This document shows, piece after piece, positions 2,740 to 10,974 of a stretch of DNA of 60,489 bases (position 1 is its first letter; the number at the start of each line of letters is the position of its first letter). The notes below the pieces were generated by a model. That model saw only the letters and a program-made list of their open reading frames with translations. It did no database searches and was not told the DNA's origin. The stretch comes from Candidatus Krumholzibacteriia bacterium (GTDB lineage Bacteria > Krumholzibacteriota > Krumholzibacteriia > JAJRXK01): NCBI GenBank assembly GCA_029932915.1, contig JAOZPE010000009.1, positions 15,785 through 76,273 of the forward strand, read 5' to 3'. The translations under genes and the position numbers were made by a program.

Positions 2740-3792
2740 CTACCGTTGAGACTCGGCGTCGATCAGATAGCGGGTGAGAGCGTAGAACAGGCAGACGACG
2801 ACCAGCTCGATCATGGCCGACCACTGGTCGCGGTAGAACATGAAGGGCTGGGTCACGAAGATCGACACCAGCAGTGAGCGCTGGAACATGCGGTAGGCGG
2901 CCAGGCGGTGGCGGAAGATCATCAGGGCGCCGAGAATGACGAAGATTCCCGAGACCACGAAGGACACACCGAGGATCCAGTCGATCATGCCCAGACTCGC
3001 CAATGCCCGGGCCTTCTGCCCTGGATGGAACATCACCGGGGCGGCCGCGTCACCACCCCGGGAGAAGAAGATCACCACCATGCCCCGCAGCGATCCGGCA
3101 GCCTGCAGGGCGAAGGCCACCAGGATGACGAACCACGAGAAGCGGCGGCCGTCCGCCACGCTCCGGTAGGCTTCGTCGAGGCGCCGCCGCAGACGGATGA
3201 TGGCCGGAGGCCGGTGGTCGGGAACCACCCGCGCCGACTCGAGCACCCCCCTTACCGCCCGGGTCAGGGGATCGTCCTGGGGACTGTGGTCGAGATAGTG
3301 GCGGATGCGATCGCGCTCCCTCGACTCCAGGTCATCGACCACCACCTCCTCCATCTCCACCAGCGCGTTGACCAGGTAGTCGCCGGGACGGGCCATCTGT
3401 TCGCGGTGGATCGAACGCACCACCAGATACAGAGCGATGAAGACCAGATAGATGAGGGCAATGGTGGGCTGGAAGAAGTAGTCGTTGTCCTTGGTGATGA
3501 ACTTCCCCAGCTCATCGATGAACAGGCCGAAACCGATTCCACCCACCAGCGAGGCGGGATACTTGATCTGGCGACCCAGGAAGAGCAGCAGCATCACCAG
3601 GGCGATGAGCATGCCCAGACCACCCCACAACATGTGGGCGATGTGCAGTCCACCCATCGCCACCTGCGGGTAACCGGTGAGCAGCAGGTAGAAACGGGTC
3701 AACAGGATGGTGATGATGGCGGCGATCAGGAAGAGATCGAAGTAGTTGCCACCTTCGAAATCAGGGACCGCCCGGCGACGCGATTGGAACAC
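2740..3792 (-). CDS. Conserved integral membrane protein, function unknown
   Basis: A 350-aa membrane protein that starts with GTG only three bases after the subtilase stop, so it is the last gene of the CHAT operon. Four hydrophobic segments lie in the first 130 residues. A charged cytoplasmic or periplasmic stretch (about 135-215) contains the acidic run MEEVVVDDLE. Three or four more membrane helices follow to the C-terminus. I recognise no catalytic motif. Its position directly behind two protease-type genes suggests a partner, anchor or target of that module, but this is inference only. There is no clear Shine-Dalgarno sequence, which fits translational coupling to the upstream gene. Confidence 0.75.
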   Translation of the reverse strand: MFQSRRRAVPDFEGGNYFDLFLIAAIITILLTRFYLLLTGYPQVAMGGLHIAHMLWGGLGMLIALVMLLLFLGRQIKYPASLVGGIGFGLFIDELGKFITKDNDYFFQPTIALIYLVFIALYLVVRSIHREQMARPGDYLVNALVEMEEVVVDDLESRERDRIRHYLDHSPQDDPLTRAVRGVLESARVVPDHRPPAIIRLRRRLDEAYRSVADGRRFSWFVILVAFALQAAGSLRGMVVIFFSRGGDAAAPVMFHPGQKARALASLGMIDWILGVSFVVSGIFVILGALMIFRHRLAAYRMFQRSLLVSIFVTQPFMFYRDQWSAMIELVVVCLFYALTRYLIDAESQR

Positions 3793-3795
3793 GGT

Positions 3796-4848
3796 TCAAG
3801 AGGCTCGATCGAAGAAATGATTCCCGCTGTCGAGGACAGCGACATCGCGCGCATCCAGAGGGTGCCAGGCCAAGCCCCAGTCCACCTGTCCCCCTTCGAT
3901 CTGCACACGACCGACGTGTGCCGGCAGATCGACGACCAGCCAGCGTGCTCCACGGTAGACGCAACATGCCCGGTCGTGCAACGGGGGAAACAGACGAGGC
4001 GGCTCGCCGCCGTTCCAGCTCAGGGCGAGACGGTGGGGACCGGGCGCCGGCCGGCGCCACCAGGAAACCCGATGACCGTGCCTGGTGACGAGGCTTCCCG
4101 TCTCGAGGATCCGCTGCAGACGCTCCGTCTCGGGCGTTCCCGGGCTGGGAATGTCCCCACCCGCGGGACGCGCACCGGCCAGCAGCACCGCGCGAACGAC
4201 TTCGGGCCGCCACTGCTCAGGTCGCAGCCGGCACAGGATCTCGGTGACCCGGGCCGCGAGCCGCGGCGCCGCGAAGGACGAGCCATGGCGTCCACCCAGG
4301 GGATCGCTCCCGTCGGCCAGGAGGATCTCGCTCTCGCTCGCGTCGATCGCACAATCCCCCCACCATCGCTTGCGGGCATCGGCCGCCAGCACCTCCGGAA
4401 GCGAGGCGGGAAGGTACAGACGACGCCCCTCGGTCAAGCCGTCACTGGGCTGACCGGCCGCGGCGACCACGATCACCCCGCTCCGGCGGCACAGGCGCTG
4501 CAAACCCTCTTCCAGCGCCCTCCAACCGTGATCGCGCTCGAGGGACCGACGTCCCCAACTGATGGTGACGATCTGCGCTCCGCGGTGGACCAGGCGCTCG
4601 ATCGCCGCCAGCCAGGCGTGGGCGTCGGCCCGGGGAGCAAGGCTCTCGAAGATGCAACGGGACGGCCCGGATCCTCCCAAGGCCTCCAGGTACGCCAGGA
4701 GCACCGAGGTGGGATGGTCGGCGACTCCGTCCTCCCCATACAGGGAGAAGGAGGGAATGAAGGGAAGACGCAGCAGCAGGGGCTCGAGCCGATGATGTCT
4801 CAGATCGGGACGCCCCATATCGACGAATGCTGCGACCGGCTTTTCCAT
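3796..4848 (-). CDS. Compact subtilisin-like (S8) serine protease homologue
   Basis: A 350-aa S8-type domain with no propeptide and no signal peptide. The catalytic triad can be traced: Asp10 in AAFVDMGRPD, His45 in DHPTSVLLAYL (equivalent to HGTHVA) and Ser191 in GSSFAAP. The oxyanion-hole Asn, normally found in VAAAGN, is replaced by Gln133 (VAAAGQ), so activity may be reduced or altered. Residues after about 270 form a short C-terminal beta-rich extension. The start at 4848 follows the stop of the upstream 216-aa gene by five bases; a longer reading from 4983 would overlap that gene. It lies in an operon with a CHAT-domain protein, which suggests a proteolytic signalling pathway rather than nutrient degradation. 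Confidence 0.75.
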   Translation of the reverse strand: MEKPVAAFVDMGRPDLRHHRLEPLLLRLPFIPSFSLYGEDGVADHPTSVLLAYLEALGGSGPSRCIFESLAPRADAHAWLAAIERLVHRGAQIVTISWGRRSLERDHGWRALEEGLQRLCRRSGVIVVAAAGQPSDGLTEGRRLYLPASLPEVLAADARKRWWGDCAIDASESEILLADGSDPLGGRHGSSFAAPRLAARVTEILCRLRPEQWRPEVVRAVLLAGARPAGGDIPSPGTPETERLQRILETGSLVTRHGHRVSWWRRPAPGPHRLALSWNGGEPPRLFPPLHDRACCVYRGARWLVVDLPAHVGRVQIEGGQVDWGLAWHPLDARDVAVLDSGNHFFDRAS

Positions 4849-4853
4849 GGTAC

Positions 4854-5504
4854 CTACTTGGGAGGATAGGGCAGAGCCCCATCGGTCTGCTGCGGCCCGC
4901 CTGCCCGGGCCTCGAAGGCCCTCTTCAGCCGGCTGCTCTCGTCCTCGAAGAGGGGATGAGGGGAATCCTCCCCCTTGCGCCACACCCAGGGCTTCAGATC
5001 GAGACCCTGCAGGGCGAAGAGATAGTGGTCGCCATCACCCTCCCCCCGGTACTCGTAGACGTAGTTGAGATGGGGATCCCTGAAGACCAGGGCCGTGTCC
5101 CAGTCCTCCTTGCGCCCGCCGGCGTCGAACGATTCGCGTGGCCACTTCTTCCGTCCCCGACCGTCCGGGAGATGCACGCTGTACTCGAAGATCTTCTCCG
5201 GCGACAGCGCGTCGGGGGGCGCACCCTCCTCACGCGGCCACAGGATCACGACCTGGTCGCGCGAGATCGCGGGCGGAACGGCGGAGATCTTCCTTCCCTC
5301 GTCGTCTTCGAACTCGTAGAGCACCGAGCTCGAGTTGTTCAGGACCAGGAGCACCACCCTGTCCGGGTCGAAGAAACTCTTCTTCCCCCGTCCGGGATCG
5401 TGCTCGAAGCCATACTGGACGAAGGACATCTTCCCCATCCCGATGGAAAGATGGTTGTCGCCGATCTGGATCGTGCTGGGATCTGTATTCGAGCCGTTTG
5501 CCAT
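4854..5504 (-). CDS. Hypothetical protein between CHAT and subtilase genes
   Basis: A 216-aa soluble, charged protein with no signal peptide, membrane helix or motif that I recognise. The middle is rich in alternating hydrophobic residues (VVLLVLNNSSSVLYEFEDD), which suggests a beta-sandwich. The C-terminal 40 residues are charged and proline/glycine-rich and probably flexible. It starts 30 bases after the CHAT stop and ends five bases before the subtilase start, so the three are surely co-transcribed. A partner or substrate of one of the two proteases is a reasonable guess, but nothing in the sequence proves it. Confidence 0.7.
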   Translation of the reverse strand: MANGSNTDPSTIQIGDNHLSIGMGKMSFVQYGFEHDPGRGKKSFFDPDRVVLLVLNNSSSVLYEFEDDEGRKISAVPPAISRDQVVILWPREEGAPPDALSPEKIFEYSVHLPDGRGRKKWPRESFDAGGRKEDWDTALVFRDPHLNYVYEYRGEGDGDHYLFALQGLDLKPWVWRKGEDSPHPLFEDESSRLKRAFEARAGGPQQTDGALPYPPK

Positions 5505-5534: not shown

Positions 5535-8500
5535 TCAAGGACCATAGGCTCGGAAAGCACCCCAATCGCGCTCGAGCCTGCCATCGCCCTGAGCCATCTC
5601 CAACTGGGCGCCTTGCAACGCGGCGGCCACCGAGTCGTTCGAACCCAGGAGCCTTCGGTAGAAGGTGCGCATCAGCTCCAGCGTGGCCTCGTCCTCTACT
5701 TTCCATAAGGACGCGATCAGATCGCGACTTCCCCCCGAAAAGATCGCCGCCCCCAGGGTCGACAGTCCGCCCTCGACGACGGACGAACCGAGTTGTGAAC
5801 TCTCACATCCGGCCAGGGTCACCAGGGAGACCTTCCGCAGGGGCCATCGCGTCAGTTCCCCGCCGTGCAGCAGTCCCGCCCGCGAATCTTCCGGGGCCAA
5901 CAGGAGGAAGGGTTCCCCGAACTCGTCGAGTCCACTGTGGGAAGCGATGTGCAGGATGCCCACCCCACCGGCCAGGGCCGCCGAGACCGCCGAAGCCGTC
6001 GCCCGCTCCCCGCACAGTGCCACCCCATCGGCCGAGAGAGCCGCAACCTGTCTCGCCTCCTCCTCGGCCAGGGGCAGAGGGCGGATTCCCAGATGGGACG
6101 GAGCGGCCGATCCACCGTAGCCGACGGCGAGCAAGCGGGCCCGCCGATCCAGCGGCGGGCGGGCGCTCAGCAACACCCGGATGCTTCCACTGAGTTCGTA
6201 GGAGACGACCTGCTCCCGGAGAAGGGGTTCCCCATGCGGACGCAGGAGAACGAAGGGAAGGCGGCTCAGCGGCGCATCGGCCACGATGATCACCCGTCGG
6301 GCCTGCCGTCGTTCGTCCTCGATGGGAGCGAGGAGCAGGTCAGCCAGCTCGTGGGCCAGCGGGCTGGGCACGCCACTGTGGATGGAACGTTCCCAATCGG
6401 CGATCCGCCGGCTCAACTCGGCCCGGCCGATCGCGACTGCGGCATACCGCAGCCGGGAGGAGCCGAGGGTCCAGACGTCGATGCGCTCCTGGTTCACGCG
6501 GTACTGCACGAGCAGCTCGCCCGGAGCAAGGGTCGCCTGTACCCGCTCGACCACCGACAGACTCGAGCTGTCCGGCGATCCCACCAATAGCGGGGAATCC
6601 TCGCCCACACGTTCGAGGAGGGCCCGGGCACGCGCCCTCTCGTCCACCGCGTAGGCCGCGGCCGGGTCGTGCAGGACACGGGCGAGCAGATCGATGTACT
6701 CGTCGAAGAGATCGGAGGCGGGAAGGAGCAGCTCGGCCCGCATCTGCGCCTCGTCCAGTTCGGCGCTGAGGGTCTCCAGGCGGTGCAGCGCGTTCTCGTA
6801 GCGCGCCGCCGCCTCGCGGGGTGAGCCCTCCCGGAGCAGGCGACGCGCCTGCAGGGCGTCGACCCGCCACAGATCGTAGGCGAGCTGTTCCCTGCGGGCG
6901 AGGGCCTCGCTCTCCTGGAGGGTCTGCCGGGCCGCCCCGATCCGGCCGGTCTGGAGCTGTTCCTCGGCCCGGGCCAACTGCACGTAGAGGGTCTGGCGGT
7001 ACTGGCCCGGTCCCCGGGTCGACTCGAGGGCCTTGTCGTACCACGACATCCGGCGGGGGTCCCCCGAGGGCAGGGCCCGGCCGCGGGCCAGCAGGGCCCA
7101 GGTCTGCTTCGACTGGATGCTCTGTCGGTAGGAGGCGGGCAGATCGTCGAGGAAGTCCTCGTCCACGCGCTGCAGTTCGGTGCGTGCACAGCGTTCGGCG
7201 GTCTCCATGTGGCCCCGGGCCAGGGCGATCCACGCCATTCCATTGAGGGAGACGATCTGCAGATAGCGATCGCCCCGGCGGCGGCTCTCGCGGTAGGCGT
7301 GCACGACCGCCTTCCAGGAGCGGTCCAGATCGCCCAGGTCTTCCAGGGCTCCGGCCCGCACCAGTTCGAACTGCAGGGTGGAGATCCCGTAGCGCTCGGC
7401 CAGATCGCCCAGGCGGGGCAGGATCCGCAGCCGCTGGGCGCGATCGCCCGATACGCCATAGATCATGAACAGGTTGTACCAGCACGAGAAGAGATAGGCC
7501 GGATCGCCCAGCTCCTCCGCGCAGCGAACCGCCTGGCGGTACTCCTCCCGCTGCTCGCGCACCTTCCCCAGTTCACCCAGCGCGAAGCCCCGCCCCCAGT
7601 GCCAACGTCCGGCCAGGTACCACAGCCCCAGCTCGCTGCAGGCCGCCCCCTTCCCCTCGGAGAGGGCCACCGCCCGGCGGCATCGCTCCTTCCAGCTCCA
7701 CTGGGACTGCGAGAAGAGCGCATCGAAGCGGTGCTGGTCGCGCACGAGCTGCAGGGCCTGCTTCGCCGAGCTGCCCTGGAGTGAGCGGATCGCCTGCATC
7801 CGCCGGCGTACACCCGCGTAGAAATCGGGTGGATCCCAGGGAATCGCCTCCATCAACGATTCGACCTCGTGGAAGTCCACCTCCCTTCCATTCCCGCTGC
7901 GCTCGAGCCCCTCCTCGATGGGCCCATCCATGCTCTTCTGCAGGGTGAGCAGGTACGAAGCCGGAGCCAGCCGGGCTGCCTCGCGCATCCTCCAGGTGTC
8001 CTGGGCCGCGCGGGCGGCCTCGAAGTGGGGGCTCCAGGTGTCCATCCCCGACGACGAAGCCCGTACCATGGCCTTCCACAGGCGGCGGCGGGCGGGAACG
8101 GGAAGGGAGGGCAACGAGTCGAGCAGGGCCTGGGCGGCCGCCGTCCGTCCCCACTCGCACTCGATCCAGGCCAAACCCCAGCGGCAGCTCGTCCCCATGC
8201 CCTCGACATCCTCGATCGAGTGCAGCAGTTCGCTGGCCCTCTGCAGATGCTTCTCGCCCTCGAGGGGATCGCTCTCGGAGGACTCCAGGGCCACCCTCGC
8301 CGCCGCCTCGAGGAAGGCGAGCTGGGCCGCCTCCGGCCTGGGCCACGCTCGCGCAGCCCGTGCGCGGGTGAGGGTCCGCAGCGCCCGGCGCGGCTGGCCC
8401 AGTCTCAGTTGCAGGATCGCGGTCTCCGTCCAGCTCGCCAGGCGCTCTGGTGCCACCACGGTGGCTTCCACCCCCCGATCGAGCCTTCCCTCCAGGGTCT

Positions 8501-8657
8501 CCTCGTCCTGCTCCCCGTCGATCCAGACGGACAGGGACGGCGGAAGGAGCAGGGGCGTCCCGTTCCAAGGGGCCTGGACCTGGGCATCCGTGGGCGGCGG
8601 CGCGGCCAGGGAGGCCGCGATGAAGAGCAGGGCGATCGCGATACCGAAGGGGCGCAT
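5535..8657 (-). CDS. Exported TPR-CHAT domain protein (caspase-like cysteine peptidase)
   Basis: A 1040-aa protein. Residues 1-25 form a signal peptide (hydrophobic core IAIALLFIAASLA, small residues before PPPTDA). The long middle region (about 60-700) is built of helical TPR-like repeats. The C-terminal 200 residues are a CHAT domain with the His/Cys dyad: His907 in ASHSGLD and Cys951 in LAGCESS, followed by the GGSRDLIASLWKV strand typical of the family. CHAT proteins are clan CD peptidases related to caspases and separase. The start at 8657 is chosen for the signal peptide; a longer reading to 8894 runs into the divergent gene. First gene of a four-gene operon with a subtilase. Export suggests action in the periplasm or at the surface. 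Confidence 0.85.
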   Translation of the reverse strand: MRPFGIAIALLFIAASLAAPPPTDAQVQAPWNGTPLLLPPSLSVWIDGEQDEETLEGRLDRGVEATVVAPERLASWTETAILQLRLGQPRRALRTLTRARAARAWPRPEAAQLAFLEAAARVALESSESDPLEGEKHLQRASELLHSIEDVEGMGTSCRWGLAWIECEWGRTAAAQALLDSLPSLPVPARRRLWKAMVRASSSGMDTWSPHFEAARAAQDTWRMREAARLAPASYLLTLQKSMDGPIEEGLERSGNGREVDFHEVESLMEAIPWDPPDFYAGVRRRMQAIRSLQGSSAKQALQLVRDQHRFDALFSQSQWSWKERCRRAVALSEGKGAACSELGLWYLAGRWHWGRGFALGELGKVREQREEYRQAVRCAEELGDPAYLFSCWYNLFMIYGVSGDRAQRLRILPRLGDLAERYGISTLQFELVRAGALEDLGDLDRSWKAVVHAYRESRRRGDRYLQIVSLNGMAWIALARGHMETAERCARTELQRVDEDFLDDLPASYRQSIQSKQTWALLARGRALPSGDPRRMSWYDKALESTRGPGQYRQTLYVQLARAEEQLQTGRIGAARQTLQESEALARREQLAYDLWRVDALQARRLLREGSPREAAARYENALHRLETLSAELDEAQMRAELLLPASDLFDEYIDLLARVLHDPAAAYAVDERARARALLERVGEDSPLLVGSPDSSSLSVVERVQATLAPGELLVQYRVNQERIDVWTLGSSRLRYAAVAIGRAELSRRIADWERSIHSGVPSPLAHELADLLLAPIEDERRQARRVIIVADAPLSRLPFVLLRPHGEPLLREQVVSYELSGSIRVLLSARPPLDRRARLLAVGYGGSAAPSHLGIRPLPLAEEEARQVAALSADGVALCGERATASAVSAALAGGVGILHIASHSGLDEFGEPFLLLAPEDSRAGLLHGGELTRWPLRKVSLVTLAGCESSQLGSSVVEGGLSTLGAAIFSGGSRDLIASLWKVEDEATLELMRTFYRRLLGSNDSVAAALQGAQLEMAQGDGRLERDWGAFRAYGP

Positions 8658-8839
8658 GGCCCTATTCGACCACGAATGCAGCGGCCTTGTCACCACCTGG
8701 ACGATTTCCGGTAGGAGCCGGACCGTCCTTGTCGTCCTGGAAGAAGAAGGGAGGTTCGAGCTCGGCTTGACGCTCCCCGCGTCGGAAAGCAGACTGGCCT
8801 CGTCAGTGGAAACGCCGATTCCTTCTGTCGGGAGCCCAA
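8658..8839. promoter_or_regulatory. Divergent control region between CHAT operon and sigma-factor gene
   Basis: The 182 bases separate two divergent starts (8657 minus, 8840 plus), so promoters for both transcription units should lie here. I see GGGAG six bases before the GTG of the sigma gene as its ribosome-binding site. I could not identify a convincing -35/-10 pair or a GGAAC-N16-CGTC-type ECF promoter by eye. Confidence 0.5.
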
Positions 8840-10516
8840 GTGAGAATCGACGCGGAGACCTCGTTCGCCGATCTGTACGCGCGCTGCGTGGCATCGGACG
8901 AAGAACGAGCGTGGGGTGAGCTGATCCGCCGTTTCGATTCCGTCGTCCTGAGGGCGGCGGCCGGCACCTACCGCGTTCTCGTTCCCGGCCGGTACAGACC
9001 GGAGGACATCGAGGATGCCCGACAGGAGACCTGGATGCGACTCATCCGCAACAACCGCCGTCATGTTCGAACCCAACCCGACCGCAGCGAGGGCGAATTC
9101 CACGTCTACCTGCGTACCACTGCCGCCAACGTGGTTCGCGATCACCTGAAGGCCGAACGAAGCCTGAAACGGCCGAAGATCGCTGCTCTGGACGCCGAGA
9201 CCCTCGAACTGGTCCTCTCCCAGGCCCGGCACGACGGTCCCAGCCCCGACGAGTGGACCCACACCCAGCAGATCGTCGAGCAGATCACTCCCATCCTGCG
9301 CAGACACTGGAGTGACCGTCCCACCTGCGAACGGGACATCGCCATCTGCAATCTGGCCCTCATGGACGGCGTGAGCGCCGCCCGTATCGCCTCCATCGAG
9401 AGCTTCGGGCTGAGCCGGGGCGGCGTGGAGAAGGTGATCGAACGGGGACGCAGAATCCTCCGGCGCCACTTCGGTGGTCCCGGCGCGCGCTCCCGTTTCA
9501 TCGACGGCGACCGGTCCGGAGAGGATGGTCCCCCTCCTCCGGACTGGCGCGATCCCGACGAGATCGTGGCCTTCGTGCTGGGCGAACTCGACGAATGGAC
9601 CACCGCCCAGCGGATGGCCCTGTTGAGTCGGGACGCCCGAGCCCGGCGGGCACTCACCACGGTGGCCTCCCTCCTGGAGGCCCCCCTCGATGACGCCCTG
9701 TCCAGAGAGCTGCAGATCCACGACGGGGTGTCGTACTTCCGGAAGCTGCGCCGGAAGGTCCAGAGGGAGGATCGGCCGTCGATCTTCGCCTTCCCACGCT
9801 GGCCCCGAACCCAACTCGCCCAGGCGATCGTGGCCACGGCCGCCCTGCTGACGGTCGTCTTCTCCCCGCTGATCGAGGAAGGACGGCGCGGGCCCACTCC
9901 TACGGTCGTCCCCGTTTCCAGCCGTCTCATTCCCTCGCTTCCCTCCTACCCGCAGGACGCGGTCGCCCCGCTCCGTCTGCCCCAACCCTTCGCCCCGGAG
10001 GGTTCCGGGCCGATGCGCGGGACGGTGGAGCCGGTGGACGAGGACCGTCTCCTGGAGGTCGAGGACGCGTTGATCCTCGAGCGCAGCGAAGGCAAGGATC
10101 CGGTGGCCATCAGCAACGCCCTGGGACACCTGAAGCTGGCGCGGGGACGCTTCGAACTGGCCGCCCGCAACTACTCCCTGGCGCTTCGTCACGATCCGCT
10201 CAACGCCGAGGCGCTCATCGGTCTCTCGGTGGTGCGCTATCACCAGGCGATGAGCGACAGCGATCCCACGCGGCGGCAGGAGCTGCTCGAGCAGGCGGAC
10301 GAGATGCTGGCCCGGGTCGAACCCTCCTCACCCCTCTACCTCCAGGCGCTCTACGACCGGGTCTACGTGGCCCTGGCCGGGGGCCGGCTCGATGAGGCCG
10401 TCCAGCTCGCCGAACGCTATCATCAGTGGTCCGGCGACGACGGATGGATGCGTGCACTGCGAGCCGCGGTCGAGCGCAGCCGCACTTCCACGGACACCCA
10501 CCTCGAACAGGACTAG
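8840..10516 (+). CDS. Sigma-70 family protein with fused membrane anchor and TPR domain
   Basis: A 558-aa multidomain protein. Residues 10-110 match sigma region 2 (DIEDARQETWMRLIRN resembles the 2.2/2.3 helix). About 140-212 looks like sigma region 4 (the SAARIASIESFGLSRGGVEKVI helices). Residues 236-290 resemble an anti-sigma N-terminal domain (DEIVAFVLGELDEWTTAQR) without zinc ligands. A single membrane helix spans 325-342 (LAQAIVATAALLTVVF). A proline-rich linker leads to TPR repeats at about 405-530. The topology would place the sigma part in the cytoplasm and the TPRs in the periplasm. The GTG start has GGGAG six bases upstream. Divergent from the CHAT operon, which probably belongs to its regulon or controls it. 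Release by proteolysis is the obvious hypothesis. Confidence 0.8.
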   Translation: MRIDAETSFADLYARCVASDEERAWGELIRRFDSVVLRAAAGTYRVLVPGRYRPEDIEDARQETWMRLIRNNRRHVRTQPDRSEGEFHVYLRTTAANVVRDHLKAERSLKRPKIAALDAETLELVLSQARHDGPSPDEWTHTQQIVEQITPILRRHWSDRPTCERDIAICNLALMDGVSAARIASIESFGLSRGGVEKVIERGRRILRRHFGGPGARSRFIDGDRSGEDGPPPPDWRDPDEIVAFVLGELDEWTTAQRMALLSRDARARRALTTVASLLEAPLDDALSRELQIHDGVSYFRKLRRKVQREDRPSIFAFPRWPRTQLAQAIVATAALLTVVFSPLIEEGRRGPTPTVVPVSSRLIPSLPSYPQDAVAPLRLPQPFAPEGSGPMRGTVEPVDEDRLLEVEDALILERSEGKDPVAISNALGHLKLARGRFELAARNYSLALRHDPLNAEALIGLSVVRYHQAMSDSDPTRRQELLEQADEMLARVEPSSPLYLQALYDRVYVALAGGRLDEAVQLAERYHQWSGDDGWMRALRAAVERSRTSTDTHLEQD

Positions 10517-10974
10517 CCGGGCGAAAGCCGGCAGCGGGCAGGCGATCCCCCTCCGGGGCGATCGCCCCGTACCACGGGTCCCCCCACGAGGGGATCGTCG
10601 CGTACCACGGCCCAGGCGATCCCGAGGACATTCCATCGACGACGACGGCGGCCCGGAAGGCCGCCGTCATCGTCTCGCTTCGCTCTGTGCTGGAAGGATG
10701 ATGGCTCTCGGTGGCGGGGAGGGGGTTCCTTTCGGAAAGGCTCCCATTTTCCGTCCGGTCCCCTCCCCAGGAGCCCACCAGAACCTGACGAATGGGACCA
10801 GGTCCGGTTCCGTGGGTCTCTTCATCTGAGGACGAGAACCGCAGGAGGATTCCCCCTCTCGATCGAGAAGAAAAACCATCGAATCCACCCGAGCGTCTCT
10901 TCGGCCAGCAGCTACCTGGCCCGTATCTACTTGACCAGGCTGGCCCACATCTATTTGACCAGCCCGACCGGCAT
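10517..10974. other. 458-base intergenic region rich in palindromes
   Basis: No credible gene lies here between the sigma-like gene and the convergent acyl-CoA dehydrogenase. It holds a perfect 16-base palindrome (CGGGGCGATCGCCCCG at 10554-10569) and two copies of CGTACCACGG (10568-10577 and 10601-10610). It also holds a 10-bp hairpin (10644-10668) and a 24-base tandem repeat at its right end. I saw no tRNA-like fold. Confidence 0.6.
10644..10668 (+). terminator. Hairpin downstream of the sigma-factor gene
   Basis: A perfect 10-bp stem (GACGGCGGCC with GGCCGCCGTC) closes a 5-base loop. Only a weak pyrimidine-rich stretch (TCATCGTCTCGCTT) follows, so it may be a poor intrinsic terminator or a processing/stability hairpin for the convergent transcripts. 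Confidence 0.45.

Follow-up and report, generated by a model that had tools for sequence, protein, structure and literature searches.

In the ECF52 group of sigma factors, for example SCO4117 of Streptomyces coelicolor, one protein carries a sigma factor, a zinc-finger anti-sigma domain, a membrane helix, a Pro-rich region and an extracytoplasmic sensor, and release by proteolysis has been proposed (PMC5826349). IutY (ECF243) of Pseudomonas putida is a sigma/anti-sigma fusion for which release by Prc and RseP has been shown experimentally (PMC8999054). ECF54 sigma factors have subtilase and CHAT genes as neighbours, and for them a control by proteolysis that needs no anti-sigma factor has been proposed (PMC8999054). 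In the CRISPR type III-E system CASP (Csx29, Csx30 and CASP-sigma), the TPR-CHAT protein Csx29 cuts the inhibitor of an ECF sigma factor and thereby relieves the sigma factor (PMC10028731). A literature search found no papers on sigma factors of Krumholzibacteriota.

The locus described here comes from this phylum. The stretch of DNA that was analysed, referred to as the window, is 60,489 nucleotides long (contig JAOZPE010000009.1) and contains a gene for a fused, membrane-bound ECF sigma factor, next to which a CHAT operon is divergently transcribed. The features are listed in Table 1.

Table 1. Fused sigma gene and divergent CHAT operon: features and their positions in the window.
Feature	Position	Strand	Basis or remark
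Fused ECF sigma / anti-sigma / membrane helix / periplasmic TPR protein, 558 aa	8840..10516	+	One ORF, domains, profiles
Sigma regions 2 and 4, residues about 24-213	8909..9478	+	Sigma70_r2; SigE structures by profile; alignment with the sigma factor of genome G350
Anti-sigma-like domain, residues about 235-275, zinc ligands lost	9542..9664	+	Ortholog alignment; zf-HC2 profile match
Predicted single membrane helix, residues about 323-349	9806..9886	+	Hydropathy, AlphaFold helix
Pro-rich periplasmic linker, 24% Pro	9887..10039	+	Composition
TPR domain, residues 401-547	10040..10480	+	Pfam, Foldseek, pLDDT 57-91
Divergent intergenic region, sigma gene / CHAT operon	8658..8839	.	182 bp
TPR-CHAT protein, 1040 aa, N-terminal signal peptide, His/Cys dyad (HIASH...GCES)	5535..8657	-	PF12770, 156.8 bits
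216-aa protein, no assigned family, conserved in module	4854..5504	-	Counterpart in genome G001
Subtilase (S8) homolog	3796..4848	-	PF00082, 32.3 bits

A preliminary description of this DNA had placed sigma regions, an anti-sigma-like segment, one membrane helix and a TPR domain on a single chain, and had pointed out that a frameshift might have joined two genes. The reading frame (8840-10516, plus strand) runs from a GTG at 8840 to a TAG at 10516, with 558 codons, no internal stops, and GGGAG 6 nt upstream of the GTG. Third-codon-position G+C is 0.74-0.88 in every 50-codon block of the gene, and stays high where the sigma and anti-sigma parts meet and through the membrane helix. A whole-genome search identified a full-length ortholog with 34% identity in a different genus of the same family (genome G001, contig JAJDAC010000027.1, Candidatus Krumholzibacteriota). 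Since this independent full-length protein has the same domain order, the fused chain is not a frameshift artefact; the ortholog and the high third-position G+C together rule out a frameshift or a false join of two genes. The single-chain architecture is thus borne out, and at the level of sequence the 558-residue protein is confirmed as one intact multi-domain chain.

The N-terminal half had been assigned sigma regions 2 and 4. HMM searches support the first of these: Sigma70_r2 (PF04542) scores 27.0 bits in a six-frame scan, above the 24-bit cut-off, and 23.3 bits when the fused protein is analysed by Pfam hmmscan (cut-off 24). Region 4 has no match in Pfam, and is on its own too diverged for it. 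With a profile built from two sequences (residues 1-227), ECF SigE structures are matched over both regions (profile positions 32-228, E 2e-4), so that the proposed sigma identity does have a sequence profile match behind it. The best Foldseek matches of the sigma chain are dominated by TPR structures, and this search is therefore no test of the sigma fold. We infer that the N-terminal half lies in the cytoplasm and functions as a sigma factor. Because region 2 is borderline in Pfam and region 4 is not detected there, it might be argued that the sigma half has degenerated, leaving an adaptor or receptor with no sigma activity. This is very unlikely, given that 34% identity is kept across two genera, that the profile finds SigE across both regions, and that a homologous sigma factor exists outside the phylum, as discussed below.

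The anti-sigma-like segment of the fused protein has no Pfam match. It was recognised by means of the HX25HX3CX2C motif of the ortholog and the separate zf-HC2 genes of relatives. The exact motif, the textbook zinc motif of anti-sigma factors, is kept in the ortholog at the aligned place, and all four of its zinc ligands are absent from the window protein in this alignment. In relation to class I anti-sigma domains, which include a zinc-less kind, the anti-sigma and membrane part alone gives a profile match to the zf-HC2 domains of relatives (77%, E 2e-5). The AlphaFold model is unreliable in this segment, with pLDDT < 50.

The membrane segment (residues 323-349) has a hydropathy of 1.97 and is a helix in the AlphaFold model; this helix, and the signal peptides discussed below, were called from hydropathy and inspection rather than by a dedicated predictor. 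It is preceded by an Arg/Lys-rich stretch, and by the positive-inside rule the N-terminus would therefore be inside and the TPR domain outside. The TPR assignment (residues 401-547) comes from Pfam (E 8e-6) and from Foldseek, where the matches are TPR structures, and the model reaches a pLDDT of 91 in this domain. A protein of this kind might be switched by conformation: when its periplasmic TPR domain binds a ligand or a partner, the anti-sigma segment on the other side of the membrane would be loosened without cleavage, and the sigma factor would work while still bound to the membrane. Consistent with this, the TPR extensions of ECF42 sigma factors act by protein contact (PMC8999054), and the missing zinc ligands are a sign of divergence in the inhibitory segment. 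However, the ECF42 extensions are TPR-rich with no membrane helix described, and the only sigma/anti-sigma fusion to be tested experimentally, IutY, is activated by proteolysis (PMC8999054). A purely conformational switch is therefore considered improbable.

The genes of the CHAT operon are closely spaced, with about 30 bp between the CHAT and 216-aa genes and 5 bp from the stop of the latter to the subtilase ATG. The locus of the ortholog contains the same four genes in the same divergent arrangement (sigma; signal-peptide CHAT-TPR, 216-aa protein, subtilase). The HIASH and GCES motifs of the CHAT protein and its signal peptide are kept in both copies of the module; the catalytic Cys of the window copy is residue 951. 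The 216-aa protein has a counterpart in the corresponding position of the G001 module (27% identity), and no matches in Pfam, NCBIfam, PADLOC or the PDB; its AlphaFold model (pLDDT 34) was unusable. His and Ser of the subtilase triad are present in both copies, the remaining residue being Asp in the window and Glu in G001. Neither the subtilase nor the 216-aa protein has an obvious signal peptide, and they would therefore be on the opposite side of the membrane from the CHAT protein. PADLOC models gave no match to any of the four module proteins (fused sigma, CHAT, 216-aa and subtilase). Downstream of the subtilase gene, 2740-3792 on the minus strand encodes a predicted 350-aa membrane protein; its NCBIfam match to an anti-sigma model is weak (E 0.012) and falls well short of the cut-off of that model. 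At the other end of the locus, CGTACCACGG occurs twice (10568-10577 and 10601-10610) in a G+C-rich stretch just 3' of the stop of the sigma gene.

The preliminary description had suggested a search for a shared promoter motif upstream of the CHAT operon. The 182-bp intergenic region contains no GAAC-N15-18-CGT/GTC/TCT-like pattern and no sigma-70-like promoter site, so that control of the CHAT operon by the fused sigma factor is hypothetical. This bears on the question of whether the operon is an output of the system. The TPR domain would then sense an envelope signal, general site-1 and site-2 proteases would release the sigma factor, and this would switch on the CHAT, 216-aa and subtilase genes, whose products act on other targets (of a defence or cell-death type). 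ECF genes often control the adjoining operon, and the divergent arrangement is kept in both genomes, which counts in favour of such a role. The lack of an ECF-like promoter pattern counts against it, although a novel specificity could be missed. Promoter evidence does not discriminate between an output and an activator role, and on that count the operon could equally well be the output; overall, we regard this as possible but doubtful.

The fused form was found in 2 of the 387 genomes searched. A single-sequence search of GTDB contigs gave no close relatives of the fused protein, a search of the same contigs with a two-row alignment recovered the known ortholog only, and no relatives were found on plasmids. 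None of the other sigma frames inspected near CHAT genes has a membrane helix.

The same parts are found as separate genes in other genomes. In another family of the phylum, a zf-HC2/TM/TPR gene comes immediately after a sigma gene at eight loci, and one more contig, the ninth, starts inside the anti-sigma gene. A CHAT protein follows in five of these split loci, as judged by profile; two further loci have a downstream frame that shares the N-terminal part of the CHAT protein, one (L117) has a different gene downstream, and at one other the contig ends. The 216-aa and subtilase genes have no match in the Krumholzibacteriota split loci scanned. At L080 (G039:C99) and L070 (G028:C39), the gene immediately upstream of the split sigma/anti-sigma/CHAT set is a radical SAM gene. 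Outside the phylum, the genome whose sigma factor best matches the window profile (G350) carries a sigma gene, a zf-HC2/TM/TPR gene and a signal-peptide CHAT gene one after another. Its sigma factor aligns with the fused sigma over its full length (203 columns, hhalign 96.9%, E 2e-10).

Profile comparisons were used to relate the fused protein to these separate genes. The C-terminal half matches the separate anti-sigma factors of the other family (98.6%, E 9e-16 overall), and has no profile match to the anti-sigma factor of G350 (1.3%). As a control, a profile of the split anti-sigma factors alone was run against the same genomes, and it ranks the fused protein below many ordinary TPR proteins. 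The homology of the TPR part is therefore only moderate, and the idea that this half is specifically orthologous to the separate anti-sigma factors is weakened. Homology with the separate anti-sigma factors is supported by profile comparison and gene order, and not by simple similarity. The fused sigma and the sigma factors of the other family share a weak region-4 alignment alone (0.8%), so any relationship between the two sigma subfamilies must be distant. Since the split relatives have the same parts in a row, the fused gene is best read, as far as sequence comparison goes, as a fusion of a sigma gene with the gene of its membrane anti-sigma factor. The suggestion that sigma factor, anti-sigma factor and sensor are combined in one chain is well supported by these relatives, where domains in the same order are split over two genes.

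The association of sigma and CHAT genes extends beyond these loci. In six genomes of the phylum, a Sigma70_r2 match is present within 4 kb of 28 of the 63 CHAT domains, against 3.4 expected, and in the genome of the window this is true of all four CHAT domains. So many pairs suggest a common signalling habit in the phylum rather than a curiosity of one genome. The CHAT-adjoining sigma factors occur with a membrane zinc anti-sigma factor, with a membrane Ser/Thr kinase, or beside a CHAT protein that has no signal peptide. In many relatives the CHAT gene is downstream of the sigma and anti-sigma genes, which fits either an activator or an output role. The occurrence of CHAT beside sigma factors with quite different partners, including the order sigma > Ser/Thr kinase > CHAT, looks as if CHAT were the constant output, and is a further point in favour of the output role.

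Several individual loci illustrate this variety. Three further CHAT genes in the genome of the window, L072 (G000:C66), L122 (G000:C30) and L123 (G000:C74), are each < 4 kb from a sigma gene, and the order at L072 is sigma > zf-HC2/TM > signal-peptide CHAT. At L066 (G001:C22) and L065 (G004:C36) the order is sigma > membrane Ser/Thr kinase > TPR-CHAT, with the kinase in place of the anti-sigma gene. L083 (G001:C17), where sigma genes flank a subtilase lipoprotein and an adjoining CHAT protein that has no signal peptide, resembles the ECF54 neighbourhood (PMC8999054). The CHAT N-termini at L124 (G002:C65) and L126 (G002:C6) are like lipoprotein signals, and the sigma genes beside them resemble those of the split operons.

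On the basis of these observations, our preferred reading, on which we are evenly balanced, is that the protein is a single-chain, membrane-tethered ECF sigma factor that inhibits itself and is released by periplasmic and site-2 proteolysis, with the CHAT protein plausibly the site-1 protease. In this model, the anti-sigma segment of the chain would keep the sigma half at the membrane and inactive. On the periplasmic side, the TPR domain would sense or dock a partner, probably the secreted TPR-CHAT protein, and a periplasmic or juxtamembrane cut would follow, plausibly made by the CHAT protein. A site-2 (RseP-type) protease would then cut the membrane helix, and the freed sigma factor would transcribe its regulon. 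Of these steps, the one we are least sure of is activation by the CHAT protease, which is made plausible by the cleavage of a sigma inhibitor by Csx29 (PMC10028731) and by the proteolysis proposed for ECF54 (PMC8999054). Because the neighbourhood is conserved, a cut, possibly by the CHAT protein, is a better bet than release by a TPR ligand. A site-2 protease is present in 5 of 5 genomes tested; M50 proteases are nearly universal, being found in all 14 of 14 control genomes, and this presence is therefore weak support. More tentatively, secreted TPR-CHAT proteins may be dedicated site-1 proteases for ECF sigma release, which recognise the periplasmic TPR domain of the tethered sigma (or anti-sigma) factor. 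They would form a caspase-type counterpart of DegS/RseP, widespread in Krumholzibacteriota in split and fused forms.

Should this mechanism hold, the part of CHAT proteins in sigma control, so far known from a CRISPR system in which a sigma inhibitor is cut, would extend to envelope proteases that start transcription. The presence of split and fused forms in one phylum provides a natural series for studying how a sigma factor and its inhibitor become joined, and what happens to the zinc finger when inhibition is intramolecular.

It remains to compare the locus with the described systems. The fused protein has the domain order of ECF52 on one chain, with the zinc finger found here in the ortholog only, and the ECF52 sensor is a carbohydrate-binding module where the C-terminal domain of the fused protein is TPR by Pfam and Foldseek. 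ECF52 is described as exclusive to Actinobacteria and keeps its zinc finger, and its description mentions no CHAT operon (PMC5826349). IutY is similar in having a sigma factor and a membrane-bound anti-sigma factor on one chain; it belongs to iron/siderophore cell-surface signalling, with no TPR domain or CHAT partner described. The locus shares with ECF54 its subtilase (PF00082) and CHAT (PF12770) neighbours, but a fused anti-sigma/TM/TPR half is not described for ECF54, unlike the window protein. CASP is guided by Cas7-11 and crRNA and has a separate inhibitor, whereas the module described here has a signal-peptide CHAT protein and an inhibitor that is part of the sigma chain itself. The split triplets of Krumholzibacteriota and G350 have the same parts, order and CHAT partner as the fused module; they differ in being separate genes with the zinc motif intact, while the window protein is one chain that has lost the zinc ligands. 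We therefore regard the fused protein as an ECF52-like fused sigma factor in an ECF54-like neighbourhood, with a sound architecture and a mechanism that is a proposal. The architecture (from ECF52) and the CHAT and subtilase neighbours (from ECF54) are already known; the TPR sensor, the zinc loss, the secreted CHAT partner and the phylum are new.
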